Position numbers and translations under genes: made by a program. A stretch of 41,408 nucleotides of DNA from Clostridiales bacterium (GTDB lineage Bacteria > Bacillota > Limnochordia > Darwinibacteriales > B1SED10-159), in assembly GCA_003551965.1 (NCBI GenBank), contig PUOC01000199.1:1-41408 (forward strand), in the 5' to 3' direction. The notes beneath the pieces were generated by a model, which searched no databases, was not told where the DNA came from, and saw only the letters and a program-made list of their open reading frames with translations. Shown one piece after another: positions 2,707 to 26,709 of the stretch (position 1 is the first letter of the stretch; each line of letters starts with the position of its first letter).

Positions 2707-3279
2707 CTATACGCTGATTGGCTTACACCGTGCGATGAATTGGATGAAGGCCTCGGCCTGTTCCTCGAGCATGGAGGCGCTGGTAGTAAGTCGAAGCCGA
2801 CCTTCCTCGTCTAACTGCGTCTGCGCCTGGGGAATCCTGAGCCTGGGTTTGTTCATAACAGCCATATTGAGCAGACTGATCAGGGTCACTAAGTGGTCCA
2901 TACCGGTGGCGGTGCCGCCCATTCCCGGACTGATGCCGCTCAATGCCGCCGGTTTCCCGTTAAGCACGGAGGCTGCGCCCGGCTCTGGCGGGCGGGAGAG
3001 CCAGTCCAACAGGTTTTTCAGTACTCCTGGGAAAAAATGGTTGTATTCCGGTGAAAAGAACCATACACCATCGGCCTGCTCTATGCAGGTCCGCACGGCA
3101 GCTACCAACGGCGGCGCCGGATACTCTATGTCCTGGTTCATGTAAGGTATGTCCGAGTAGTCCAATAGCTCTAGTTCGGCTCGGCCTTTGCAGACATTTT
3201 GAGCCGCGAGAGCCAGTTGACGATTGTACGAGTGGGTTCGCAGTGAACCGACCACGGCCTGAATCTTTGGCTTTGTCAT
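2707..3279 (-). CDS. NADPH-dependent FMN reductase-family protein
   Basis: MTKPKIQAVVGSLRTHSYNRQLALAA...DGVWFFSPEYNHFFPGVLKNLLDWLSRP matches the flavodoxin-like FMN_red fold. ATG at 3279 has an upstream GGAG. Confidence 0.9.
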   Translation of the reverse strand: MTKPKIQAVVGSLRTHSYNRQLALAAQNVCKGRAELELLDYSDIPYMNQDIEYPAPPLVAAVRTCIEQADGVWFFSPEYNHFFPGVLKNLLDWLSRPPEPGAASVLNGKPAALSGISPGMGGTATGMDHLVTLISLLNMAVMNKPRLRIPQAQTQLDEEGRLRLTTSASMLEEQAEAFIQFIARCKPISV

Positions 3280-3674
3280 ATTCTTCAACTCCATTACGGT
3301 TTTTGGCTTCGATCCTTTCCCCTATGCAATGACGGCCCATGGGGCACAGCCCCCGGCCATAGCTTTCCATATTCATCGCACAACTCCTGCCTCAATGCTG
3401 TGGCCTGCATCGTCTTATGCGGCCGGACAAGATACGGCGGCGGAGCCTTTGACTGGTTCGGGTATGGCCGATATATGGTGTCCCCGATGCCGGGCTGTCG
3501 CGTTTGTCCCTGGGCCCGGCTATGATCCGTGTATGTACCCGTGGCAAAAAGATCCTGATGCTATCTGCAACAACACCTCAGCACTGACACAGAAAGCTAA
3601 GAACACCCGGGTCGAGTCAGAACCTGCCCGGGCCGCAGCCCGCAGCCACACCGTGCCGGGGGCATCGTTGCAGA

Positions 3675-4478
3675 TCAGTGCAGGCTTCCCTGGCTTTGTC
3701 TGCTCGTCTCCGTGTCTCGGTCCGATTGCGGACGGGCGCGGATGCCCAGCAAGAGGATGAACCACAGCGGTGCATTGCTGATGGCGTGGACGGAGAAGGA
3801 AGCCCAGGTGGATCCAAGGTATTGCGCTGTCAGAGGAGCTATCAGCATGCCTGGTATCATGGCGACAAAGTGCCATTTCAGTGCAGCATGCATAAGCCAG
3901 GCCCACATCAATCCATTTACGATCCACGCGGTGCCGCCGAAGTGGGCCTCTTGGATGGGTAAGAGCAGACCGCGCCACATCACTTCTTCACTGAACATGG
4001 CAAAGACATGCACGGGTACAAAAAGAAACAGCAACTTCCAGTTGCCCGGCAGGGGAACACCGAAGAACTCTGTAGGCGGCAGAGAGAACTTCCGCAGAGG
4101 ATGGAAAGGAGCCGGAAGATAATGGGGCGGTGAGAGGCGGCCGAATTTGGCCAAGCGCCTGCTCACGGGCTCTAAGACCTGTTCTGTGAGCAGTGTCAGA
4201 AAGACCGCCCCTGCAATCCAGAGCCAGTCGGTTCCTGCCAACGGGAAGAAACGAAAGCGCTCCCGAAGAACCTCTGCGGTAAACGCGCCGCCTTCGGTCA
4301 GGGAAAAAAGCACCAGGGCTGCGGGCAGCAAGAGCAGGGCCGGCAGCCATAGACATAACCAAAACGCATAGATTAGAGCCCATCCCCTGTCAACTAGTTT
4401 CGGTACGCCATAGAAAACTCCGGTATAGACAACGGCACCGGGTACAGCAAAACACACTACCTGCCACCAAAAAGACAC
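3675..4478 (-). CDS. CPBP-family intramembrane metalloprotease (CAAX/Abi-like)
   Basis: Multiple TM segments. FSEEVMWRGLLLP matches the EExxxR motif; later conserved histidines in WLMHAALKWHF and FSVHAISN. Confidence 0.83.
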   Translation of the reverse strand: MSFWWQVVCFAVPGAVVYTGVFYGVPKLVDRGWALIYAFWLCLWLPALLLLPAALVLFSLTEGGAFTAEVLRERFRFFPLAGTDWLWIAGAVFLTLLTEQVLEPVSRRLAKFGRLSPPHYLPAPFHPLRKFSLPPTEFFGVPLPGNWKLLFLFVPVHVFAMFSEEVMWRGLLLPIQEAHFGGTAWIVNGLMWAWLMHAALKWHFVAMIPGMLIAPLTAQYLGSTWASFSVHAISNAPLWFILLLGIRARPQSDRDTETSRQSQGSLH

Positions 4479-12890: not shown

Positions 12891-14615
12891 ATGGAAATGG
12901 TGAAGGACCATCGCAACATCCGGCATGGAGATCGCCTGCCGTGTGAGGGGTACTGCGATCAACCCTATGTTGTACAAACCAATGACGGCAACTGGCTTTG
13001 TGTTATGACCACTGGCCCTGGCCCCGAGGGTGATTGTCGTCAACACGTGGCAGCCACGGTCAGCTCCGATCAGGGAAGAACATGGTCGCAGCTCATAGAC
13101 ATTGAGCCCATGGGCCCGCCGGAGGCTTCGTGGGCCATGCCGTTGAAGACACCCAGTGGAAGAGTGTATGTGTTTTATACCTACAACAAGGACAATGTGC
13201 AGAAATTGCCGGGATGGGCATCACCGGGTCGCCATCGAGTAGACACCCTAGGTCATCTTGCATACAAGTATTCCGATGACCACGGACGGACTTGGTCTCG
13301 CCAGCGCTACTATGTGCCCATGCGCAAGATGACAATCGATTATGAGAATGGCTATGGCGGCGAAGTTATGTTTTTCTGGGGCGTGGGCAAGCCCATCATC
13401 CACGGGAATATCGTGTACTTGGGTGTTGCCAAAGTAGGTGACTTCAACAGCGTTGGCTTTATGGCGGAGTCGGAAGGTGTTTTCCTTAAGAGTAACAACA
13501 TTCTGGAGGAGTTGGACCCCGGGAAGATCCACTGGGAAACTTTGCCCGACGGTGATATGGGCCTTAGGTCTCCTAAGGGGCCGATAGCGGATGAAAATAA
13601 CGTCGCCGCCTTAAGCGATGGAAGCCTGTACGCGACATATCGGACCATGGAAGGCCGCAGTGGCCAAGCATACAGCAGGGATGGGGGATACACCTGGGAG
13701 GACCGGCAGTATGCCTCGTACTCTCCAGGCGGTCGATGGCTTAAGCATCCGCGCGCAGCTACTTTCGTGCGCAAATGCAGCCATGGCCGATTCATCCTCT
13801 GGTTCCACAATCATGGCCGCCGCTGGTACCAGGACCGCAACCCCGCCTGGATCGCCGGCGGCGTTGAACGCGATGGGTATATCCACTGGTCACAGCCGGA
13901 GATCTGCCTTTACGACGACAACCCAGAGACACGAATCAGTTATCCGGACTTCATTGAGGAAGATGGCCACTATTTCGTTACAGAGACACAGAAGACAATC
14001 GCCCGCTGTCACAGAATGGATGGCAGCCTTTTGGAAGGGATGTGGAGCCAGATGGAAGATACGGCCTGCACACCCCGTCGGCCGGAACCGCACCTTACAG
14101 TATCTGGTTGCCAGCCGGGAACAAAGATCACCGCGGGCACAATCCCGAGATTGGAAGAGGGCCGGGGTTTTGCCTTGGAGTTGTGGCTGAACATGCGCGG
14201 CCTAGGAATGGAGGGCATGTTGTGCAGTACCTTAGACGAGTCAAATAAGGGCATCGAAGTCAGGACGACAATACGCGGGACACTGCAATTGACGTTGTCA
14301 AACGGCGAAGTATCGCTGTGCGGAGAGACCGATACCGGGCTACTGCGCCGAGGAGCATGGCAACATGTGGTTCTGAACGTGGACGGCGGTTCCAGAATCA
14401 TGAGTTTTGTGGTAGACGGCGTTTTATGTGACGGCGGGGACATTCGTGACCGGGGTTGGTACCGCATTCCTAAGGAGCTCGTGGATGTCAATGGCGCGAG
14501 TCGTCTAACCATGGGCTTTTTTAAGGGAGAACTCGGACAAGTGAACATCTACGATCGTTATCTGCGTACCTACGAGGCAGTAGGCAATTATCGGACGGGC
14601 AGACAGTCAACGTGA
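12891..14615 (+). CDS. BNR/Asp-box sialidase-like protein with C-terminal LamG-like region
   Basis: Asp-box repeats SSDQGRTWS, YSDDHGRTWS, YSRDGGYTWE. C-terminal GFALELWLNMRG...RRGAWQHVVLNVDGG...GFFKGELGQVNIYDRYL is LamG-like. No signal peptide visible. Confidence 0.85.
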   Translation: MEMVKDHRNIRHGDRLPCEGYCDQPYVVQTNDGNWLCVMTTGPGPEGDCRQHVAATVSSDQGRTWSQLIDIEPMGPPEASWAMPLKTPSGRVYVFYTYNKDNVQKLPGWASPGRHRVDTLGHLAYKYSDDHGRTWSRQRYYVPMRKMTIDYENGYGGEVMFFWGVGKPIIHGNIVYLGVAKVGDFNSVGFMAESEGVFLKSNNILEELDPGKIHWETLPDGDMGLRSPKGPIADENNVAALSDGSLYATYRTMEGRSGQAYSRDGGYTWEDRQYASYSPGGRWLKHPRAATFVRKCSHGRFILWFHNHGRRWYQDRNPAWIAGGVERDGYIHWSQPEICLYDDNPETRISYPDFIEEDGHYFVTETQKTIARCHRMDGSLLEGMWSQMEDTACTPRRPEPHLTVSGCQPGTKITAGTIPRLEEGRGFALELWLNMRGLGMEGMLCSTLDESNKGIEVRTTIRGTLQLTLSNGEVSLCGETDTGLLRRGAWQHVVLNVDGGSRIMSFVVDGVLCDGGDIRDRGWYRIPKELVDVNGASRLTMGFFKGELGQVNIYDRYLRTYEAVGNYRTGRQST

Positions 14616-15682: not shown

Positions 15683-16156
15683 CTACCGAAAATCCAAATA
15701 GGGATACCATTCTTCAGGGCGCTGCAAGAGCTGGAGAAGCCGCCATATGATCAGCCGATGGGACTCTTCTTCGTCGACCAGCCGCAGGAATGCTTTCTTC
15801 TCTTCATCGGAGCCGGCGTTTTGCGCCATCTCTGTGTAGACCGCAATGCTTTTCTTTTCGAACTCTAAGGCCATTTCATAGGCTTCCAGGTAATTTTGCT
15901 TTTGGTCCAAGGTTTCGCGATCAATGGTCTGTGGTGGGAATATCTTCCTGGCATCCTCCATGGGGTCTTTGGTTTCAAAGTCGTATTTACCCAGTTCTTT
16001 CATGCGCAGAATTGCTTGGTAGTGGCGCTCTTCATCGGCAGCCAGAGAACGGAACAGTTTCTCGGTCTGTCTATCCTTGGTGGCGTCGGCATACTTCAGG
16101 TAAAAGGCGCGGCCGTCTTCTTCATTCTGCAGGGCAATGTCCAGCACATTGGCCAT
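15683..16156 (-). CDS. ferritin-like / rubrerythrin-domain protein
   Basis: Di-iron carboxylate helices: ALQNEEDGRAFYLKYAD, LAADEERHYQAIL, ALEFEKKSIAVYTEMA, LVDEEESHRLII. Confidence 0.9.
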   Translation of the reverse strand: MANVLDIALQNEEDGRAFYLKYADATKDRQTEKLFRSLAADEERHYQAILRMKELGKYDFETKDPMEDARKIFPPQTIDRETLDQKQNYLEAYEMALEFEKKSIAVYTEMAQNAGSDEEKKAFLRLVDEEESHRLIIWRLLQLLQRPEEWYPYLDFR

Positions 16157-16200: not shown

Positions 16201-16653
16201 CTAAAAAAGAATACGCATTACTGTGGCCGGCTCGATGCGGAACTTCGCGCCGTGCCCTTCATAGAAACCATGGGCTTGGATCATATGGATATTGAGGGCA
16301 GAAAAGGAGAGGCGCTGCCCGGTCTTCTGGTCTGTTACCGACACCATAACCTTAGGAGCGGTGTGGTTGTCCCGGAAGGGACAGGGAATTCCACCCTTGT
16401 GCTCTTCCGCCACAACGTCGTAGCGCCGTTCTACTTCCACCGCCTGACCTAATCCTTTGCGGCCCTCGGTGTAGAAGAATTGGAGTCTCCCGGCGATGTC
16501 GCCGTGGGTAGTACCCAATTGGGTGACTAGGGCGTCGTCAGCCTCTAGAATGTCCATGAGCTGGCGGGTGTCCGAACCTAAGAACCCAAAGGCCGCCAGG
16601 GATCCCGAGCGCATGTTTTCTTGAATTGCATGTAGTTCGGGGGTTTGTTTCAC
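16201..16653 (-). CDS. conserved hypothetical protein
   Basis: SGSLAAFGFLGSDTRQLMDILEADDALVTQLGTTHGDIAGRLQFF...IPCPFRDN...FSALNIHMIQAHGFYEGHGAKFRIEP; coherent ORF with GGGGAG upstream, resembling a Firmicutes hypothetical family. Confidence 0.6.
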   Translation of the reverse strand: MKQTPELHAIQENMRSGSLAAFGFLGSDTRQLMDILEADDALVTQLGTTHGDIAGRLQFFYTEGRKGLGQAVEVERRYDVVAEEHKGGIPCPFRDNHTAPKVMVSVTDQKTGQRLSFSALNIHMIQAHGFYEGHGAKFRIEPATVMRILF

Positions 16654-16728: not shown

Positions 16729-17829
16729 CTACGTGAATTTGTCATAGAAAACTTCGTCTTCCGTTAGGCCGATCCCCGTCAGGACGTTGATGCAGGCGTT
16801 GATCATACCTGGGCTTCCGCAGAGATAGGCCTGTTTGTTAACGGGGGTTTCGACATATTTGGCCACCACATCGGTGATCAGGCCAACGTCTCCCTGCCAT
16901 GCGTCTTCGGGGGCGGGGTTTGACAGGGCGGGAATATAGCGGAAATTCGGATAGCGTTTTTCCAGGTCCTGGAACAGCTCCACATAGTAGAGGTCCTTTT
17001 TTGTTACAGCTCCGAAGAAAAATGTCATGTTCTTCTCCAGCCCTTGTTCTAGGATATCGAATACCAGAGATTTGATCGGCGCCAAGCCCGAACCGCCTGC
17101 AATAAAGACCAGGTCATCGGCGCCGTCCCGCAGGTAAAAGTCTCCAAACGGCCCGCGCAGAGTGATGGTATCTCCTTCTTTGACATGCTCATGCATGAAG
17201 GTCGTGCAGATGCCGTTGGGAACCAGGCGGATAATGAGATCGACAAAGCCCTTGTCCGAGGGCACAGAAGAGATGGAATATGCCCTCGAAACCGATTCTG
17301 TGACACTGCCGTAGGGTTTGGAATCGATCTGTACATACTGGCCCGGTTTGAAAGCCAGTTCTGCCGGTTCCTCCAGGGCGAAACGGAACTCCTTGATGTC
17401 ATGGGTAAGATCGGTAATTTTTTCTATCCGCGCTTGGTACTGCTCGATATTGAACAGCTCTTCCGGGATATGGATCTCGAGGTCGTGCTTGATCTTGATC
17501 TGGCAGGAGAGACGGACGCCTTCATTGACCTGTTCTTCGCTGAGGTACGGTTCCTCCGTCGGCAGCACAGGCCCAACATCGGAAGCTACCTGTACGGTAC
17601 ATAAGCCGCAGGTTGCCTTGCCGCCGCAGGCAGAGGGGATGAAGATCCTGTTGGCTGCCAAGGCACTGAGAAGCGTCGATCCGCCGTTTACAGTCATCTG
17701 TCTGTTGCCGCCATTGATATCGATCACGCACTCACCATAGTCGTTCAAAAACCGATCGGCGATAACCACAACTACGGCGAGAGCACTGGAGATCAGGGAG
17801 ATGCTGAGTACAGTTTGCACGATTTCCAT
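16729..17829 (-). CDS. nqrF: Na+-translocating NADH:quinone reductase subunit F
   Basis: N-terminal TM; 2Fe-2S motif SACGGKATCGLCTVQV...LSCQ; FAD motif RAYSISS; GGSGLAPIKS; YLCGSPGMI. ATG 17829 after AAGGAG. Confidence 0.9.
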   Translation of the reverse strand: MEIVQTVLSISLISSALAVVVVIADRFLNDYGECVIDINGGNRQMTVNGGSTLLSALAANRIFIPSACGGKATCGLCTVQVASDVGPVLPTEEPYLSEEQVNEGVRLSCQIKIKHDLEIHIPEELFNIEQYQARIEKITDLTHDIKEFRFALEEPAELAFKPGQYVQIDSKPYGSVTESVSRAYSISSVPSDKGFVDLIIRLVPNGICTTFMHEHVKEGDTITLRGPFGDFYLRDGADDLVFIAGGSGLAPIKSLVFDILEQGLEKNMTFFFGAVTKKDLYYVELFQDLEKRYPNFRYIPALSNPAPEDAWQGDVGLITDVVAKYVETPVNKQAYLCGSPGMINACINVLTGIGLTEDEVFYDKFT

Positions 17830-17855
17830 AGACGGAACTCCTTCCATTGTGGCCG

Positions 17856-18455
17856 CTATTGAATCATCAGGGTTCCGGCGAAGCCGATAAACGCCAGAGC
17901 CATGATTCCCGTGATAATGAACGTAATGCCGGGACCGCCCAAGCCTATGGGCAGCTTATTTCTGGCGATCTTCTCTCGGATGGCTGCCAGTGCGCATATG
18001 GCCAGCCACCAGCCCAGCCCGCTGCCCAAACCGAAAAATACGGTCTGCAGAGCCGTGTAATCCCGGATTACCATGAAGAGGCTGATTCCCAGAATAGAGC
18101 AGTTGACGGTGATCAGTGGCAGAAATATGCCCAGCTTAACGTGCAATTCCGGCAGATAGCGATCAAGAGCCATTTCAATGATCTGCACCGAGGCGGCAAT
18201 GACCACGATGAACAGGATGAACCGCAGATACTCGAGGCCCAAAGGGGCAATGACATAATGGTAAAGGAACCAGTTCAATATGGTGGTGACAAGCATGACA
18301 AGGCTGACGGCTTTTCCCAGCCCCGAGGCGGTTTTGTACTCATTGGATACGGAGATGAAAGGGCACATACCTAAGAAATTGGCCAGTACCATGTTGCTGG
18401 TAAAAATCGCGGCGAGCAATATGACGATGGGATGGATAGCTGCAGGGGTTCCCAT
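17856..18455 (-). CDS. nqrE: NQR subunit E (RnfA/NqrE family)
   Basis: IFTSNMVLANFLGMCPFISVSNEYKTASGLGKAVSLVM...ITVNCSILGISLF. True start 18455 with AGGAGG; the supplied ORF is over-extended. Confidence 0.93.
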   Translation of the reverse strand: MGTPAAIHPIVILLAAIFTSNMVLANFLGMCPFISVSNEYKTASGLGKAVSLVMLVTTILNWFLYHYVIAPLGLEYLRFILFIVVIAASVQIIEMALDRYLPELHVKLGIFLPLITVNCSILGISLFMVIRDYTALQTVFFGLGSGLGWWLAICALAAIREKIARNKLPIGLGGPGITFIITGIMALAFIGFAGTLMIQ

Positions 18456-18469
18456 ATGAATGCGACCTC

Positions 18470-19120
18470 CTAACGACTGGCCTGCTGGCCAACGGAACTC
18501 GCCGGCGGCGCAGGTTTTTGAGTTTGTTGTCGGGACAGCTGCATGGCGGATGCGGCCCAGACCATCAGCCCAATGATGAAAAAGGCAGCCGGCGGCATGA
18601 CCATAATGGTCCACGTTTCAAATCCGGCAAAATTGACATTGAAGCCCAGGATGGTACCGAAGCCCAACAGCTCACGGATGAAGCTGATAAACAGAATGAC
18701 CAATGTATAACCAACACCGGCCAGAAAACCATCGGCCATGGCCAGCAGGGGCGGGTTCTTTTGTGCGAAGGCCTCGGCCCGGCCCATGATGATGCAGTTG
18801 GTGATGATAAGCCCCACATAGGGCCCTAAAGCACGGCTGACTTCGGGCAGCTGTGCCTGGATAGTAATATCCACGAGGATGACAAAGGCGGCAATGATAA
18901 ATACCTGGGTTATCATCCGGACACGATGGGGAATGAAACTGCGCAGCAGGGAAATGGTCAAGCTAGAGAAGGAAATAACGAAGATCAAACCCAGCCCCAT
19001 GACAAGGGTGTTGATCATCAGGTTGGTCACGGCTAGGATCGAACAGATGCCGAGAATTTGGCGGAGAACTTGGTTCTCGTTCCAGAGGTTGCGTTTGAAA
19101 ATGAGTTTCAATTGATCCAT
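18470..19120 (-). CDS. nqrD: NQR subunit D (RnfE/NqrD family)
   Basis: KRNLWNENQVLRQILGICSILAVTN...GPYVGLIITNCIIMGRAEAFAQKNPP...RELLGFGTILGF. Confidence 0.93.
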   Translation of the reverse strand: MDQLKLIFKRNLWNENQVLRQILGICSILAVTNLMINTLVMGLGLIFVISFSSLTISLLRSFIPHRVRMITQVFIIAAFVILVDITIQAQLPEVSRALGPYVGLIITNCIIMGRAEAFAQKNPPLLAMADGFLAGVGYTLVILFISFIRELLGFGTILGFNVNFAGFETWTIMVMPPAAFFIIGLMVWAASAMQLSRQQTQKPAPPASSVGQQASR

Positions 19121-19713
19121 TACAGCTCTCCCTCCAATGTCTCCACGGCGTTGGACGCGGAACGCCCGATGATATCGATAACAGCATTGGACGTGGATGT
19201 TGCACCGGTGATCGAGTCTATCTTCCGGTCTCCGTCGTCATCGGTAAGAACGGGCTGTCCGTCTTCAATGGGAATGTTTCTGTACTGCTCCTTATACCAT
19301 TCTTCATCGATGCGGCTTCCCAAGCCCGGGGTTTCGTTGTGCTCCGTAAACTCTACCCCAAGGAGGCCATCCAGATCCGAGGATAATCCCATGTAGCCGC
19401 GTATCAAACCCCAAAGCCCGGATCCTTGGAAGGGCACGGCATAACCCGTGGTGACCTGGCTTTGGTCATACTGAACAAACAGATCGATGCCGTCAACGGA
19501 TGCCGTCCGAATCTGTTCAGCAAAAGCTTGCTCGACGTCAGCGTCGGTTTGGAAGGGTATGTTCAACACATAGAGCACCGCACGCTTTTGGGCAAGTTCT
19601 TCATTGCGTTCGATCTGGGGCAGAAAAAAGGCGTTGGCCCCGGCTAAGATCGTGGTCAGTACGGCGCTGAGCAAAAACACAAAGACCACGGAATAGATAT
19701 ATTCTTTCTTCAT
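19120..19713 (-). CDS. nqrC: NQR subunit C with covalent-FMN motif
   Basis: MKKEYIYSVVFVFLLSAVLTTILAGANAF...DSITGATSTSNAVIDIIG (S/TGAT flavin attachment). True start 19713. Confidence 0.92.
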   Translation of the reverse strand: MKKEYIYSVVFVFLLSAVLTTILAGANAFFLPQIERNEELAQKRAVLYVLNIPFQTDADVEQAFAEQIRTASVDGIDLFVQYDQSQVTTGYAVPFQGSGLWGLIRGYMGLSSDLDGLLGVEFTEHNETPGLGSRIDEEWYKEQYRNIPIEDGQPVLTDDDGDRKIDSITGATSTSNAVIDIIGRSASNAVETLEGEL

Positions 19714-20678
19714 GATGCCACCTTCTCTCTTGGCGCCGCGGATTTGAGCCGCCGATCGGCCCATTCTTTGGCATGCCGGTCCAGGAACGGCCCAAAGGTA
19801 TTGGCAATCAGTATGGCGAACATAGCTCCTTCGGCGAAGTTGCCGTACGCCCGGATGATGATTGTCAGCGCTCCGATCAGAAGTCCATAGAGAATGCGGG
19901 CAGTTTCTTGACGGGGAGCGGATATGGGGTCTGTAGCCATGAAAACAGCGGCGAAGAGAAAACCACCGGTCACCATAGCTGCCGCCGGATGCAACGTCAT
20001 ATCCCCTAGCAGGTACACCAGGGTCCCAATGCCTAGAAATCCGACGGCCGTTGAGCCCATAATCTTCCACGACGCTGTTTTCGTGACGATCAAGTACGCC
20101 GCTGCAGCCGCGATCAGCAGAGCACTGGTTTCGCCGGCGGAACCGGGAATTGTGCCGAGCAGACGCGGCAGAAACCCAATCTCTGCCAGTCCAAATCCCA
20201 ATGGAGTGGCCGCGGTGATGGTGTCAGCTGCTCCGGCATAGGCCGTTATCCCCCCTGGCAGTCCGGTAAATGGCTGGCTCCAGAGATTGGTCATGGAAGC
20301 GGGGAAGGAAATAAAAATGAAGCAGCGGCCGAGGATGGCAGGATTAAAGACATTCTTTCCAAACCCACCGAAAATGCCTTTGCCGAAGAAGATCCCGAAT
20401 ACAATGCCGAGCACCGCTGTCCAGAAGGGCACCGCCGGAGGCAGGGTGAGGGCATAGAGAAAGCAAGAGACCAGGACAGCTTCTGAAACCTTCGAATTAC
20501 CTTGGTACCAGCGCTGGATAACAACGTATTCGGTGGCGATGCCCGCTGCCGTTACGACAACGAGCAGCAGAAGTACCCTCCAACCAAAGAGGTATACGGA
20601 AAAAGCCAAGAGGGGAAGCAAACTGTACAGAACCCGGCGCATAAGGTCCTGTTTCATAAAGGTCTGTGTCCACTGCAA
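19710..20678 (-). CDS. nqrB: NQR subunit B (RnfD/NqrB family)
   Basis: FGKGIFGGFGKNVFNPAILGRCFIFISFP...DTITAATPLG...GSAGETSALLI; TTG start at 20678 with AGGAGG. Confidence 0.92.
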   Translation of the reverse strand: MQWTQTFMKQDLMRRVLYSLLPLLAFSVYLFGWRVLLLLVVVTAAGIATEYVVIQRWYQGNSKVSEAVLVSCFLYALTLPPAVPFWTAVLGIVFGIFFGKGIFGGFGKNVFNPAILGRCFIFISFPASMTNLWSQPFTGLPGGITAYAGAADTITAATPLGFGLAEIGFLPRLLGTIPGSAGETSALLIAAAAAYLIVTKTASWKIMGSTAVGFLGIGTLVYLLGDMTLHPAAAMVTGGFLFAAVFMATDPISAPRQETARILYGLLIGALTIIIRAYGNFAEGAMFAILIANTFGPFLDRHAKEWADRRLKSAAPREKVAS

Positions 20679-21007
20679 GAATGACTGCCTCCTTCTTTCA
20701 CACGGCCAGCTAAGCCTGTAATAATAACTATACTAATATTATACAGTACGGTTCTAACTCCTCCTAAATTAGTTAATTACTTTTATTTTATTGCTGTACC
20801 TTGTTTTGGAAATTTATTTTCCGGCCTGCTCCAAGACGAGGGTGTCACCGAGCGAAATTGATCCAGGGTTATGATAATTTATGGCGAAGGCAGAGAAGCA
20901 GATGGATGCTTGTTCTCTGCTCTGCCCGTCCGGCCGCGGCTTTGAAGAACCATGCCGGCGGGCCTAAGGCTTGCGGGAACCAGCAGCCTAGATAGGGAGG
21001 TGTTTCC

Positions 21008-21808
21008 TTGCCAGAACAGCCCACAGCAATTGTCACGGGCGGGGCGGTGGGTATTGGCCATGCCATATCCTGTCAGCTGACAGCCGATGGATATCAGGTG
21101 GTTGCCTTTTCCCGCTCTCCGCAGGACCAGGTCCAGCAGGCCTTAAATGATATCGCGCAGTATGGTCTTAAGCCGGGGTACATCCAGGGCAGTATCGCCG
21201 AGAAGGGCGATCGTGAGCGCCTGCTGCAGCGGGTCATGGAAGTTCACGGCCATGTGGACCTGTTGGTCAACAATGCCGGTGTTGCTCCGCCAAGACGCCT
21301 GGATCTTTTGGACACTACGGAAGAAAATTTCGATTTTGTCATGGACGTCAATCTCAAAGGAACATTTTTCCTCACCCAGGCCATTGCCCGCGTTATGATT
21401 GCCCAGCAGCAGCGAAGGCAGAGCGAAACGGAAGGCCCAGGTCCCAAACAGGGGCCCAAAATTATCAACATATCATCGATTTCAGCCTATACATCTTCCG
21501 TCAACCGCGGCGAATACTGCATTTCCAAAGCGGGGATCGGGATGATTACCCAGTTGTTTGCCCACCGGCTTGCGGAACACGGCATTGGCGTGTTCGAAAT
21601 CCGTCCCGGGATCACCGATACGCAGATGACAGAAAACGTCAGAGAGAAGTATGATCGCCTCATTGCCGGGGGTTTGACGCCGATTCAGCGCTGGGGCCTG
21701 CCCGAGGATGTGGCCAATGCTGTTATGGTGATTTGTTCGGGCCGGCTTAGTTTTTCCACCGGTGAGACCATTAACGTCGATGGCGGTTTTCACCTGCGGC
21801 GGTTATAG
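21008..21808 (+). CDS. SDR-family NAD(P)-dependent oxidoreductase
   Basis: TGGAVGIG, NNAGVAPP, NISSISAY, YCISKAG, TGETINVDGG; TTG start with GGGAGG. Confidence 0.93.
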   Translation: MPEQPTAIVTGGAVGIGHAISCQLTADGYQVVAFSRSPQDQVQQALNDIAQYGLKPGYIQGSIAEKGDRERLLQRVMEVHGHVDLLVNNAGVAPPRRLDLLDTTEENFDFVMDVNLKGTFFLTQAIARVMIAQQQRRQSETEGPGPKQGPKIINISSISAYTSSVNRGEYCISKAGIGMITQLFAHRLAEHGIGVFEIRPGITDTQMTENVREKYDRLIAGGLTPIQRWGLPEDVANAVMVICSGRLSFSTGETINVDGGFHLRRL

Positions 21809-21884
21809 GGTGCACAAAAACCAGCGGCCGTTGACGGCTGGCTCCAGTACCGTAACTGTACAGCGGCGGGAAGGGAGAAGATTT

Positions 21885-22658
21885 ATGATCTATGCAGGAT
21901 TGGTTTCCGTGACGTTTCGGCAGTTGAAGCCGGAGGACATCATTGAGCTGGCCGTCGAGGCAGGCATGGACGGCATTGAATGGGGCGGTGACGTTCATGT
22001 GCCCCATGGCGACGTGGGTACCGCGGAGCGAGTCAAGAAGATGACTGAACAAGCTGGCCTGCGGATTGCTGCCTACGGCTCTTATTTCCGTTTCACCGAA
22101 ACTCCCGGCTTTGATGAGGCACTGGCTTCGGCTAAGGCTTTGGGGGCGCCGCTGATTCGGGTCTGGGCTGGCAACCTGGGATCGGAAGAGGCCGATCAAA
22201 GCTGGCGGGACTATGTGGCCCGCAAATCTTGGGATATTGCAGAACAAGCTGCCGAAACAGGTATCGCCGTGGCCTATGAGTACCACGGCAAAACACTGAC
22301 CGATACGCCGGAATCGGCCGAGGCTCTGCTCCGGTCAGCGAACCACCCTAATCTGCACAGCTATTGGCAGCCACTGCCCGATCATGCGGCAGAAGAACGG
22401 CTGCCGTCATTGCGGGATGTCCGCCCATGGCTTTCCCATCTGCATGTGTATCATTGGCTGGGACGGGACCGGCGGCCGTTGGAGGAAGGGCGCGGCCCTT
22501 GGCTGTCGTATCTGCGGGAAGCTTCCAAGGCCCCGGGCCAACGCTTCGCGAGCTTGGAGTTCGTCAAAGATGATGACCCGGCGCAGTTTCTGCAGGATGC
22601 GGCAGTACTTAAGGAAATGCTCGCCGCGGTCCATGGCGGCGAGCATCTTTCGGAGTGA
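21885..22658 (+). CDS. xylose isomerase-like TIM-barrel sugar (phosphate) isomerase/epimerase
   Basis: MIYAGLVSVTFRQLKPEDIIELAVEAGMDGIEWGGDVHVPHGD...GIAVAYEYHGKTLTDTPESAEALL. ATG 21885 after AAGGGAG. Confidence 0.87.
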   Translation: MIYAGLVSVTFRQLKPEDIIELAVEAGMDGIEWGGDVHVPHGDVGTAERVKKMTEQAGLRIAAYGSYFRFTETPGFDEALASAKALGAPLIRVWAGNLGSEEADQSWRDYVARKSWDIAEQAAETGIAVAYEYHGKTLTDTPESAEALLRSANHPNLHSYWQPLPDHAAEERLPSLRDVRPWLSHLHVYHWLGRDRRPLEEGRGPWLSYLREASKAPGQRFASLEFVKDDDPAQFLQDAAVLKEMLAAVHGGEHLSE

Positions 22659-22701
22659 TGCAGTACAGTGGAACCGAACAAGTAGAGGGGAGACAGCAGA
22701 C

Positions 22702-23691
22702 GTGTTAAACGGATTATATATTTTATCGGACGACAGCTATGACAAGATTTACGGTCCCTCCGAACGCGAGGACATCGCCCAGCTGGTGACAGTCAAAGGC
22801 CAGATCAACCGAGAAACCGCTGTTTCGCATCTGGATATGCTCCGTGATGTGGATCTGATCTTCTCCGGTTGGGGCGGGCCAAAATTCACAGAAGAATTCC
22901 TTGCCGCAGCGCCGAATCTGCAGGCGGTCTTCTATGGTGCGGGGTCCTGCAAGGCCTTGGTTACCGATGCCTTTTGGCGGCGGGGCCTTACCATAACCAC
23001 CGCTTATGCAGCCAACGCGGTTCCGGTGGCAGAGTTTACATTGGCGCAGATTATTTTCTGCTTGAAATCGGGATGGGATTATGCCCTGTCCATCAAGCGT
23101 AAAGGCGCCTATAAACGCAAAGGCCATGGGGTAGGAACCTATGGTTCCAAGGTGGGCTTGGTATCCTTGGGTATGATTGGGCGCAAAACCTGTGAGCTTT
23201 TGCAGTGTCTGGACACGGAAGTCCTGGCCTATGATCCTTTCGTTTCCGAAGGAGACGCAGAAAAGCTGGGTGTCACCCTATGTTCTCTAGAAGAGCTATT
23301 TGCCCAGTGCGACGTGGTCTCTCTGCATACACCATGGCTGAAGGAAACGGAAAACATGATCGGCCGCGAGCTGTTGGCTTCCATGAAAGAAAATGCTGCA
23401 CTGATCAACACAGCCCGCGGCGCGGTGGTCAATGAGCCGGAGATGATCTCGGTACTGCAGGAACGTCCGGATCTTTATGCGGTGTTGGATGTGACCTATC
23501 CGGAGCCGCCGGCCCCTGATTCGCCGCTTTATACGCTGCCGAATGTGGTGCTCACCCCTCACATTGCCGGGTCCATGAACGACGAATGCCGCCGCATGGG
23601 CCGCTATATGGTGGAAGAACTGCAGCGCTATCTGGCTGGGGAGCCGCTGCAGTGGGCCGTAGACCAGGAGCAGATAGCCTTGATGGCATAG
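22702..23691 (+). CDS. D-isomer-specific 2-hydroxyacid dehydrogenase
   Basis: GTYGSKVGLVSLGMIGRKTCELL, CDVVSLHTPWLKETENMI, MKENAALINTARGAVVNE, VLTPHIAGS. GTG start 22702. Confidence 0.92.
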   Translation: MLNGLYILSDDSYDKIYGPSEREDIAQLVTVKGQINRETAVSHLDMLRDVDLIFSGWGGPKFTEEFLAAAPNLQAVFYGAGSCKALVTDAFWRRGLTITTAYAANAVPVAEFTLAQIIFCLKSGWDYALSIKRKGAYKRKGHGVGTYGSKVGLVSLGMIGRKTCELLQCLDTEVLAYDPFVSEGDAEKLGVTLCSLEELFAQCDVVSLHTPWLKETENMIGRELLASMKENAALINTARGAVVNEPEMISVLQERPDLYAVLDVTYPEPPAPDSPLYTLPNVVLTPHIAGSMNDECRRMGRYMVEELQRYLAGEPLQWAVDQEQIALMA

Positions 23692-23713
23692 CCGCAGGCA
23701 GACGCACGCGAAT

Positions 23714-23750
23714 GCAGGGCGGCTTTCCCGTGACCGAGAAGCCGCCCTGC
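23714..23750. terminator. shared bidirectional terminator hairpin
   Basis: GCAGGGCGGCTT-13 nt-AAGCCGCCCTGC between convergent genes ending at 23691 (+) and 23753 (-). Confidence 0.75.
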
Positions 23751-23752
23751 GT

Positions 23753-24646
23753 TCAGAGAAGTCCTGCCCGCTCCAGGACAGTTTTGACCGCTGTCCCGCC
23801 ATCGGCGGTGATCTCCGGTGAAGGGAAGGAACAGTGCTCTGGGATGGCTAGGCCCCGCAGAGTCATGGCCCGTTTAATGAAAGGGACAAAGGGCATTCCC
23901 ATGAGATACAAACTCATGAGCTGGTCGATCTGTTTTTGAATGGCCGTGACACAGGTTAGGTCATCCTCTTTGAAGGCGTTTATCCAGGCGCTGCAAAGTT
24001 CCGGGGCCAAGTTGGAGAGGCCCCCGATACAGCCGCTGCCCCCGGCCATAACATTGTGGACGAAGTGATCGTCAAAGCCTGAATAGACCTGAAAATCGGG
24101 GAATTCAGGGCGGATCAGTTTGATCAGTTCTCGGGTATGGTTCATGGACGCAACGCTGTCTTTGTAGCCGACGATATTGGAGTGCTTGCGAACGAGGTTT
24201 AGCGCCACTGTGGGAGAAAGGTCATAGCCGGTCCGGTCAGGGAAGTTGTAGAGGTAGACCCGGCCGGCGCAGCGCGGCACAACGTAGTCGTAGTAGGCCT
24301 CAACGCTTTCGTCGGCGAGACTGAAGAAATACGGGGGCAAAACCATTACTGCGTCGGCTCCTTGGCTGTAGGCAAAGTCCGCCAATTCCAGGGTTTCTTC
24401 GACTCGAGTGCTGGCTGCTCCCACGATAACGGGAATCCTTCCTTCGATGCAGCCGACGGCCAGGCGGATCAGTTCCCGCTTTTGGCCCATGGACATGGCG
24501 AAAAATTCACCGATGCTTCCCAAGACCAGAACACCGCTGACGCCACCTCTCAATAGGTGATCATAAACCAGCTTCTGCGCTTCTCCATCCAGGTTTCCCT
24601 GCCCGTCAAAGGTTGTTACAGCTGGGGTCAGATATTGAGGTTTCAT
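23753..24646 (-). CDS. dihydrodipicolinate synthase/N-acetylneuraminate lyase-family aldolase
   Basis: LVYDHLLRGGVSGVLVLGSIGEFFAMS, YLYNFPDRTGYDLSP, IVGYKDSVAS (Schiff-base Lys). ATG 24646 with AAGGAG. Confidence 0.9.
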   Translation of the reverse strand: MKPQYLTPAVTTFDGQGNLDGEAQKLVYDHLLRGGVSGVLVLGSIGEFFAMSMGQKRELIRLAVGCIEGRIPVIVGAASTRVEETLELADFAYSQGADAVMVLPPYFFSLADESVEAYYDYVVPRCAGRVYLYNFPDRTGYDLSPTVALNLVRKHSNIVGYKDSVASMNHTRELIKLIRPEFPDFQVYSGFDDHFVHNVMAGGSGCIGGLSNLAPELCSAWINAFKEDDLTCVTAIQKQIDQLMSLYLMGMPFVPFIKRAMTLRGLAIPEHCSFPSPEITADGGTAVKTVLERAGLL

Positions 24647-24671
24647 TAAGACCGCTCCTTCCACAGTGGGT

Positions 24672-26393
24672 TTAATAGCCGGCGCCGTCCATGGCCGACA
24701 AGGCACTATCCGTATAGCGCTTAAAAAGCCCGGTTCGTTTGGGCCTTGGTTTGACCCCCTGCTCTTCCTGCCTCTTGGCCAACACCTTCTGCACTTCTTC
24801 CTCGGCGGCTTCCCGGCCGTCTATGCCCACCACATCCAGACTTCTTTCGGCAATGCTGTACTCGATGATGTCGTCAGTTTGAATAAAGGCTAAGGGGCCT
24901 CCTGCTGCTGCCTCGGGCGACACATGGCCTATGGCTGCGCCGCGGGTAGCTCCCGAAAACCGCCCGTCGGTTACCAATGACACAGTACCGTTGAGGCGCT
25001 GGTCACAGACAATGGCTTCGGTGGTCATCAGCATTTCCGGCATGCCGCTGCCCCGAGGCCCTTCATAGCGGATTACGATGATGTCATGGGGGCGGATTTG
25101 GTTTCTGATCACGGCAGCATAAGCTTCTTCCTCGGAGTCGAACACTCTTGCTGGCCCTCTGTGGCTGCGCATGTTCTCGGCGCAGGCTGAATATTTCACA
25201 ACGGAGCCTTCGGGAGCCAGGTTACCCTTAAGGAAAGCCAGTGAACCGATGCCGGCGGCCTTATCCAAAGGTTTAATGACGTCGTCTCGCTCGAGGCCAT
25301 AATTAGCCAGGTAGCCGAGATTGCGATGGAAGAAGTTGTCTTGGTGCAGGGCGTCGAGGTTTTCACCCAAGGTTCGTCCCGTGACTGTCATTACGTCAAG
25401 GTGCAGATAATCCCGCAGCAGCCACTGCACCCAGGGGACGCCGCCGGCAAACCAGAAGGATTCGGTAAGGTGGTCACCGGATGGATCAATATTGCCGATG
25501 TACGGAACGCGATGATTGATTTCGTCAAAGAGTTCCGGCGGCAGATCAATATCCAGTTCCCGGGCAATGGAAGGCAGGTGTATAGTGGCGTTGGTGGAAC
25601 CGCCGATGGCACTGTGAACAACAATCGCATTTTCAAAGGCCCTTCGTGTCATGATGTCCGACGGCAGAATTCCCTCGGCGGCCAAAGTTAGGATTTGACG
25701 CCCCGCCTGACGGGCATAGGAAAGGATGTCACGCATGGTGGCTGGCGCCAGGGCGCTTCCGGGAAGAGCCATGCCCAAGGCTTCGGCCATGCACTGCATG
25801 GTGCTGGCTGTGCCTAAGAAGGTACAGGCTCCCGCGGATGGACAACCGGTCAGCTTATAATCTCGGACTTCCTGGTCTGCAATGGCATCGCCCCGGTTTT
25901 GGCGCAGGGATATGTCTCCCGCCAGCAGCGATGTGGTCATGTGCGGTCCGGGACGCATGCTGCCGCCGGGAACAAATATGGCCGGCAGGTCTAACCGGCC
26001 AGCGGCCTTTAGATGCGCTGGTATGGACTTGTCGCAGGACGAGGACAGCACCAGGCCATCCCAGCTGGAGACGGAGCCGTGGACTTCCACCATGTCGCAG
26101 AGGGCTTCCCGGGAGGCCAAGATGATGTTCATGCCGTCGTGTCCCTGGGCGCAGCCATCGCAGATATCCGTGGCGTGAAACTGCGCCGGATAACCTCCGC
26201 ACTCAAAGACTCCATATTTCGCCTGTTCCGACAGTTTGTCCAGATGGGTGCTGCCTGGGTGGCTGTCGCCGTAGACATCTTCAATGAGGATCTGCGGCTT
26301 CTTTATATCCGGCTCATCCCACCCGGAGCCCAGCTGCAGAGCGTCAAATTGGGCCCACAATAAACGTTCCGAGGCACTTCTTTGTTGCACCAT
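24672..26393 (-). CDS. IlvD/Edd-family dehydratase (aldonate-type)
   Basis: CDGCAQGHDGM, SSSCDKSIPAHLKAAGRLDLPAIFV, GCPSAGACTFLGTASTMQCMAEALGMALPGSA, TDGRFSGATRGAAIGHVSPEA. True start 26393 after GGGAGGAG. Confidence 0.92.
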   Translation of the reverse strand: MVQQRSASERLLWAQFDALQLGSGWDEPDIKKPQILIEDVYGDSHPGSTHLDKLSEQAKYGVFECGGYPAQFHATDICDGCAQGHDGMNIILASREALCDMVEVHGSVSSWDGLVLSSSCDKSIPAHLKAAGRLDLPAIFVPGGSMRPGPHMTTSLLAGDISLRQNRGDAIADQEVRDYKLTGCPSAGACTFLGTASTMQCMAEALGMALPGSALAPATMRDILSYARQAGRQILTLAAEGILPSDIMTRRAFENAIVVHSAIGGSTNATIHLPSIARELDIDLPPELFDEINHRVPYIGNIDPSGDHLTESFWFAGGVPWVQWLLRDYLHLDVMTVTGRTLGENLDALHQDNFFHRNLGYLANYGLERDDVIKPLDKAAGIGSLAFLKGNLAPEGSVVKYSACAENMRSHRGPARVFDSEEEAYAAVIRNQIRPHDIIVIRYEGPRGSGMPEMLMTTEAIVCDQRLNGTVSLVTDGRFSGATRGAAIGHVSPEAAAGGPLAFIQTDDIIEYSIAERSLDVVGIDGREAAEEEVQKVLAKRQEEQGVKPRPKRTGLFKRYTDSALSAMDGAGY

Positions 26394-26416
26394 AGGGGTC
26401 TGTCTCCTCCCAGTAT

Positions 26417-26447
26417 CAACGGCCGCCCCCATGGGCAGCGGCCGTTG
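26417..26447. repeat. 10-bp perfect inverted repeat in the ilvD-like gene leader, close to its RBS
   Basis: CAACGGCCGC-11 nt-GCGGCCGTTG, with CCCatGGG within the loop. Confidence 0.6.
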
Positions 26448-26588
26448 GTCTTGGATAGTGTCTTCCCCAGCCAGGGACGAAAACCCTTTGCGAACCACCT
26501 GTTTCGCGCGGCAATCCTTGGCTTGTGCGCCAACCCGGTTGTTCGGCCCACGGCGAGCACCCATGCCGGCGGCAGCGGCAGCGATGAC

Positions 26589-26646
26589 AATAAACAACCC
26601 TGCCCAAGGCAGCAGCGGCTGTCGAGCAGGGAGGCTGTTGTTTATT
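26589..26646 (-). terminator. long imperfect hairpin downstream of the crtI-like gene
   Basis: AATAAACAA-CCCTGC...GCAGGG-aggctg-TTGTTTATT. Confidence 0.6.
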
Positions 26647-26709
26647 CTGTGATCTGCAGGGTTCAGGGCCATAGAAACTGCATGGGGAGAGAGACCGTTG
26701 GAGGCAGGC

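Follow-up and report, generated by a model that had tools for sequence, protein, structure and literature searches.

An nqrBCDEF operon without nqrA and with a sixth gene

We analysed a stretch of 41,408 nucleotides (the window) from a Clostridiales bacterium, contig PUOC01000199.1 of assembly GCA_003551965.1 (3.87 Mb, 329 contigs, 98% complete). On its minus strand (20678-16729), the window carries an operon in the order nqrB-C-D-E-F that lacks nqrA, the first gene of operons for the Na+-translocating NADH:quinone oxidoreductase (Na+-NQR), and that is followed by a small gene that we call X. The five nqr genes had been recognised in a preliminary description of this DNA; hidden Markov models (HMMs) confirmed the assignments (PF03116, PF04205, PF02508 twice, and Fer2 with FAD_binding_6 and NAD_binding_1) and refined the gene limits. 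The AGGAGG before nqrB, the divergent gene for a short-chain dehydrogenase/reductase (SDR) upstream of it and the lack of any open reading frame for NqrA or RnfC in the window were all as described, but gene X had been overlooked. The features are as follows.

20688-20693, minus strand: AGGAGG, ribosome-binding site of nqrB (read from the sequence)
19710-20678, minus strand: nqrB (nqrB/rnfD-like), 322 aa, TTG start at 20678, short N-terminus; PF03116, 1.8e-81
19120-19713, minus strand: nqrC (nqrC/rnfG-like), 197 aa, ATG overlapping the nqrB stop; PF04205, nqrC model 1.8e-24
18470-19120, minus strand: nqrD (nqrD/rnfE-like), 216 aa; PF02508, PRK09292 2.6e-66
17856-18455, minus strand: nqrE (nqrE/rnfA-like), 199 aa; TIGR01940, 3.2e-63
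16729-17847 (or start at 17829), minus strand: nqrF, 366-372 aa; TIGR01941, 1.7e-87
16201-16653, minus strand: gene X, 150 aa, GTG start, AGGGGAG ribosome site; sixth gene of the operon
15683-16156, minus strand: rubrerythrin-like diiron protein, 157 aa, without rubredoxin domain; PF02915, 2.6e-16

NqrF has an N-terminal membrane helix followed by a 2Fe-2S domain and by domains for flavin adenine dinucleotide (FAD) and NADH. Compared with the NCBIfam equivalog models for NQR, NqrF scored 294 bits (cut-off 295) and NqrB 187.5 bits (cut-off 349.9), whereas NqrB reached 208.1 bits with the RnfD model, barely above its cut-off of 207.05. Because these subunits fall below the NQR cut-offs and NqrB passes that of RnfD, the complex is not a typical NQR even in the subunits that it does have. 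Neither RnfB nor RnfC is encoded in the operon, here or in the 80 loci described below.

Gene X accompanies the operon across phyla

The operon without nqrA (A-less operon) recurs in relatives of the source organism. An NqrF with 60-81% identity was found in 15 of 60 related genomes, in neighbourhoods that read nqrB-C-D-E-F-X with unrelated genes upstream and mostly a rubrerythrin-like gene downstream. A scan of GTDB genomes, from which we took 80 loci as the best of at least 546, extended the distribution to Limnochordia/Clostridia, Thermotogota, Spirochaetota, KSB1, Mcinerneyibacteriota, Krumholzibacteriota and others. Among these fetched loci, on which the constancy of X was tested, the arrangement nqrBCDEF-X was present in all that were long enough to read. 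X follows nqrF in 78 of the 80, with a median gap of 15 bases from the nqrF stop; in the remaining two, X runs off the contig just past its start (L066) or nqrF is followed by a run of N (L077). A chance adjacency of the genes was rejected. The operon is also carried by Pseudothermotoga (L080, L126) and, on plasmid pILYOP01, by Ilyobacter polytropus DSM 2926 (ILYOP_RS10220 to RS10195), where X is annotated as a 'hypothetical protein' (WP_013388434.1).

The closed Spirochaetaceae chromosome CP070696 provides a contrast within one genome. It encodes a divergent NqrA in a full nqrABCDEF operon with an NqrB of 405 aa and no X (L143), and elsewhere an A-less operon with X (L109), so that NqrA and a long NqrB without X stand against a short NqrB and X without NqrA. 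Behind the full operon lies a gene for a 150-aa protein that is no relative of X. The chromosome also has a third nqr/rnf-like cluster (L144), which contains a short F-like open reading frame.

The presence of X is tied to that of nqr. In a sample of 399 genomes of the phylum, three had X, and two of these hold the operon. In the third (G004, C69:3210-3991), nqrBCDEF is gone and X is reduced to 110 aa through the loss of residues 62-109, next to an intact rubrerythrin-like gene; this locus is a relic of the operon. In records of a plasmid collection, NqrA occurred in 51 and X in Ilyobacter only, and no match to X was found in phage records.

No sequence relatives of X were detected in Pfam, NCBIfam or the PDB. 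Its AlphaFold model is of high confidence (predicted local distance difference test 96, predicted template modelling score 0.89), and a Foldseek search of the model against the PDB gave no match below E 0.35. Among 46 diverse members, the invariant residues include D28, R30, D39, G87, P92, K101, H123, F130, G133, G135 and R139, and C91 and H128 are nearly invariant. This set looks like residues that form a ligand site or an interface rather than a classical iron-sulfur site. A metal site formed by C91, H123 and H128 was considered and not adopted, as some members have Ser in place of C91. Inspection by eye showed neither a transmembrane segment nor a signal peptide. The most probable role of X is that of a cytoplasmic subunit on the NqrB face, serving as an output or docking module or as a substrate binder.

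A dedicated assembly factor is a less likely role. X might insert flavin or iron-sulfur cofactors as a functional analogue of NqrM, with BCDEF alone passing electrons to a soluble acceptor; we consider this explanation unlikely. X is small and soluble and stands at the operon end, much as the accessory genes nqrM and apbE come after nqrF in Vibrio (PMC12174285). However, the sister complexes of the NqrA type and of the Rnf type have the same core cofactors and no X, and the presence of X coincides with the A-less state. The result that no NqrM scored above cut-off in 56 host genomes would fit an analogue of NqrM, but this search had no positive control, since 14 control genomes gave none either, and is a weak negative.

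The electron path up to NqrB

Conservation of residues was assessed by column counts over 42 A-less operons. The four Cys of NqrF, its RxYS and the residues of its FAD and NADH motifs are conserved, as are the two Cys for the intramembrane 2Fe-2S cluster in NqrD (columns 42/42) and in NqrE (41/42 and 42/42). The Thr for covalent attachment of flavin mononucleotide (FMN) lies in TAATPL of NqrB (T158) and in TGATST of NqrC and is replaced by Ser in two NqrB and six NqrC; these motifs, like those of NqrF, had been named in the preliminary description, and all were found and are conserved across the operons. The flavin transferase gene apbE was not found near the operon and is encoded elsewhere in 55 of 56 host genomes, so that flavinylation is possible there. 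Because the ligands are conserved and ApbE is present, the route of the electrons from NADH as far as NqrB is very probably intact.

By homology, the complex would pump ions, presumably Na+. NADH would donate electrons to FAD and the 2Fe-2S cluster of NqrF; from there they would cross to the outer FMN of NqrC by way of the intramembrane 2Fe-2S cluster of NqrD and NqrE, and pass back to the cytoplasmic side along the FMN and riboflavin in NqrB. There they would leave not to a quinone but to a cytoplasmic acceptor that would dock where NqrA or RnfC normally covers NqrB, most likely with X at this face of NqrB as the output or docking module or as the binder of a substrate.

A short NqrB and hosts without known menaquinone pathways

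In Na+-NQR, the quinone pocket is formed by N-terminal helices of NqrB (PMC12174285), and NqrA is anchored by intertwining with the N-terminal stretch of the same subunit (PMC9325719). In NqrB of the A-less operons, the [F/L]NPA motif is preceded by 101-145 residues, compared with 173-223 in NqrB of the NqrA type and 120-124 in RnfD, and the N-terminal extension that binds quinone and NqrA is absent in the aligned A-less operons. With so short a stretch, these NqrBs lack the N-terminal helices that build the quinone pocket of NQR and interlace with NqrA. NqrA is thus absent along with the element that binds it.

The hosts also lack the known routes to menaquinone. MenD did not exceed its cut-off in any of the 56 host genomes (it did so in 7 of 14 controls), the futalosine enzymes MqnA/D gave one partial match in the same set, and no UbiA prenyltransferase was found in 20 of the hosts, compared with its presence in all 14 controls. 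Since both the N-terminal quinone site and these pathways are missing, a quinone is an unlikely acceptor.

Taken together, we consider it probable that nqrBCDEF-X is an ion-pumping NADH oxidoreductase that is built on the NQR/RNF core and delivers electrons to a cytoplasmic acceptor other than quinone, with X as output subunit or dedicated accessory. An A-less pump with a different acceptor had been one of two options in the preliminary description; it is supported here, and further so by the shortness of NqrB and the lack of quinone pathways. Several points weigh against this reading. Some relative of UbiA is present in 36 of the 56 host genomes, and the hosts could take up quinones from outside or produce them by a route other than the known ones. 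The neighbourhood of the operon shows no universal candidate for the acceptor. X has no recognisable redox motif, its Cys91 is not invariant, and it could be an assembly factor. Finally, in a tree calculated with LG+F+R5, the A-less group forms one side of a branch with 48% bootstrap.

As a candidate acceptor, the rubrerythrin-like protein comes into question in the own order only. Its gene follows X in most members of that order and rarely elsewhere, and it was rejected as a general partner for this near confinement.

The complex could still be an ordinary Na+-NQR whose quinone reduction needs no NqrA. NqrA serves a structural role and carries no cofactor while quinone binds to NqrB (PMC12174285), so BCDEF may reduce NqrB-bound quinone; the FMN ligand and the electron path are conserved, and Gly141, which belongs to the quinone pocket in Vibrio cholerae (PMC10643135), is often kept in the aligned column. 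We regard this explanation as quite unlikely, given that the NqrB helices that build the pocket are missing and that the hosts have neither MenD above cut-off nor a complete MqnA/D match and are partly devoid of UbiA.

About as unlikely is a reverse operation, in which a donor feeds NqrB through X and the ion gradient drives electrons through NqrF to NAD+. The RNF relatives are reversible (PMC12174285), and a canonical Rnf operon is also present in the own genome; however, NqrF is the NADH-oxidising module in characterised NQRs (PMC10643135), and no linked candidate for a donor was found.

NqrA is probably absent by descent

The other option of the preliminary description, an NqrA encoded elsewhere, was not supported. 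No NqrA scored above the curated cut-off in a search of the whole own genome with PF05896 and TIGR01936. Because the cut-off of the NqrA model misses divergent NqrAs (118 bits in the full operon of CP070696), matches below it were inspected singly in the own genome, as were 20 of the 29 matches in relatives. The three long matches in the own genome are RnfCs with both four-cysteine motifs, at three other loci. One belongs to a canonical rnfCDGEAB-apbE operon (L012, C178). The second (L013, C79:1-6088) consists of rnfC and an rnfD fused to an RnfG-like region with several FMN-binding repeats, a multi-flavin fusion of 855 aa up to the contig end. The third is an rnfC-rnfD pair directly 3' of formate dehydrogenase and its iron-sulfur subunit (L015, C325:9000-22000); the remainder of rnf is not nearby. 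A fifth homologue of RnfD/NqrB stands alone between a methyltransferase gene and a peroxiredoxin-like gene (L014, C38, about 3160-4131), with no other Rnf subunit near.

In the 15 relatives with such an NqrF, no NqrA exceeded the cut-off and none of the NqrA-like matches shares a contig with nqrF; each of the 20 that were examined is an RnfC bearing 4Fe-4S motifs, and in one case a contig end truncates it. NqrA above cut-off was likewise absent from 49 genomes of the 80 loci, and the loci themselves gave no match to the NqrA model. RnfC-like open reading frames of about 496 aa (E about 1e-16) lie about 4.5 kb downstream of only two A-less operons, in two related metagenome-assembled genomes of Clostridia (L053:13638-15128 and L063:8292-9782).

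The absence of NqrA is best read as a matter of descent and not of accident. A displaced NqrA, or one lost through assembly error, is extremely improbable even for an assembly in 329 contigs, because a 98% complete genome yielded none above cut-off, the examined NqrA-like matches bear the 4Fe-4S motifs of RnfC, and the same arrangement is found in about 80 other loci, 55 of them with more than 1 kb upstream of nqrB.

Relation to NQR, RNF and earlier reports

RNF hands electrons to NAD+, and NQR hands them to quinone. In trees of the B, D and E subunits, the split between Rnf and the operons that contain nqrF is fully supported. Under a site-heterogeneous model (LG+C20 with posterior mean site frequencies), support in the Shimodaira-Hasegawa-like approximate likelihood ratio test was 99 for the A-less, X-type group, 99 for the NqrA type and 100 for Rnf. 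The A-less group is a probable sister clade of the NqrA-type NQR, with the deep order unsettled. On a long branch, Shinella sp. PSBB067 (L147) carries another NQR variant, which has NqrA and a very short NqrB (268 aa).

The system shares with Na+-NQR five of six subunits, the gene order, NqrF as the NADH module, the ligands for both 2Fe-2S clusters, the FAD motif and the covalent FMN sites; it differs in the missing NqrA, the short NqrB, the subunits below cut-off, the extra X and hosts without known menaquinone pathways. With RNF (RnfCDGEAB) it has the homologous B/C/D/E core in common, its NqrB is built like RnfD, and the own genome holds both systems, but NqrF takes the place of RnfB and there is no RnfC. 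Two-subunit NQR/RNF-like systems (PMC8238504, eLife 2021; PMC10979944) likewise have an NAD-binding domain besides parts that resemble NqrB/RnfD and NqrC/RnfG; these systems fuse that domain to NqrB and lack NqrD and NqrE, whereas separate NqrD and NqrE and a full NqrF are encoded here.

The missing NqrA itself is already known from genome papers. In the parts of these sources available to us, one paper points it out in Pseudothermotoga thermarum and P. lettingae (PMC4148951) and another in P. lettingae and Clostridium ultunense (PMC5924567), both of which call the acceptor unknown, and NqrBCDEF was only listed for 'Ca. Izimaplasma' ZiA1 (PMC6256511). The gene set is the same, and those parts make no mention of X, the short NqrB, the wider range of phyla or the missing quinone pathways. 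A 2014 evolutionary survey recorded no nqr operon in Thermotogae (PMC4014512). New in our analysis are X, its constancy, the spread of the operon, the short NqrB and the test for quinone; the open-access literature, to which the search was confined, with subscription papers outside it, yielded no account of X or of how widely the A-less form occurs.

A bolder proposal, which we put forward tentatively and hold to be the less probable version, is that nqrBCDEF-X represents a third branch of the RNF/NQR pumps. X, with a fold not seen before, would replace RnfC or NqrA as the electron output in anaerobes without quinones and couple NADH oxidation and ion pumping to a cytoplasmic acceptor. If true, this third output would give fermenting anaerobes a new route to conserve energy from NADH. 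It would bear on the role of NqrA, a subunit with no cofactor, and on the origin of NQR from RNF: in the published scenario RnfC turned into NqrA (PMC4014512), yet the sister branch here has neither. X offers a concrete handle, and the presence of the operon in the type strain I. polytropus DSM 2926 makes the question testable at the bench.

Neighbouring genes

The flanks of the operon (12891-14615 and 21008-26672) resemble a set for sugar-acid catabolism, a reading made by eye except for the SDR. Besides the SDR, these genes comprise a sialidase-like gene, a sugar-phosphate isomerase-like gene, a D-2-hydroxyacid dehydrogenase, a DapA/NanA-like aldolase and an IlvD/Edd dehydratase.

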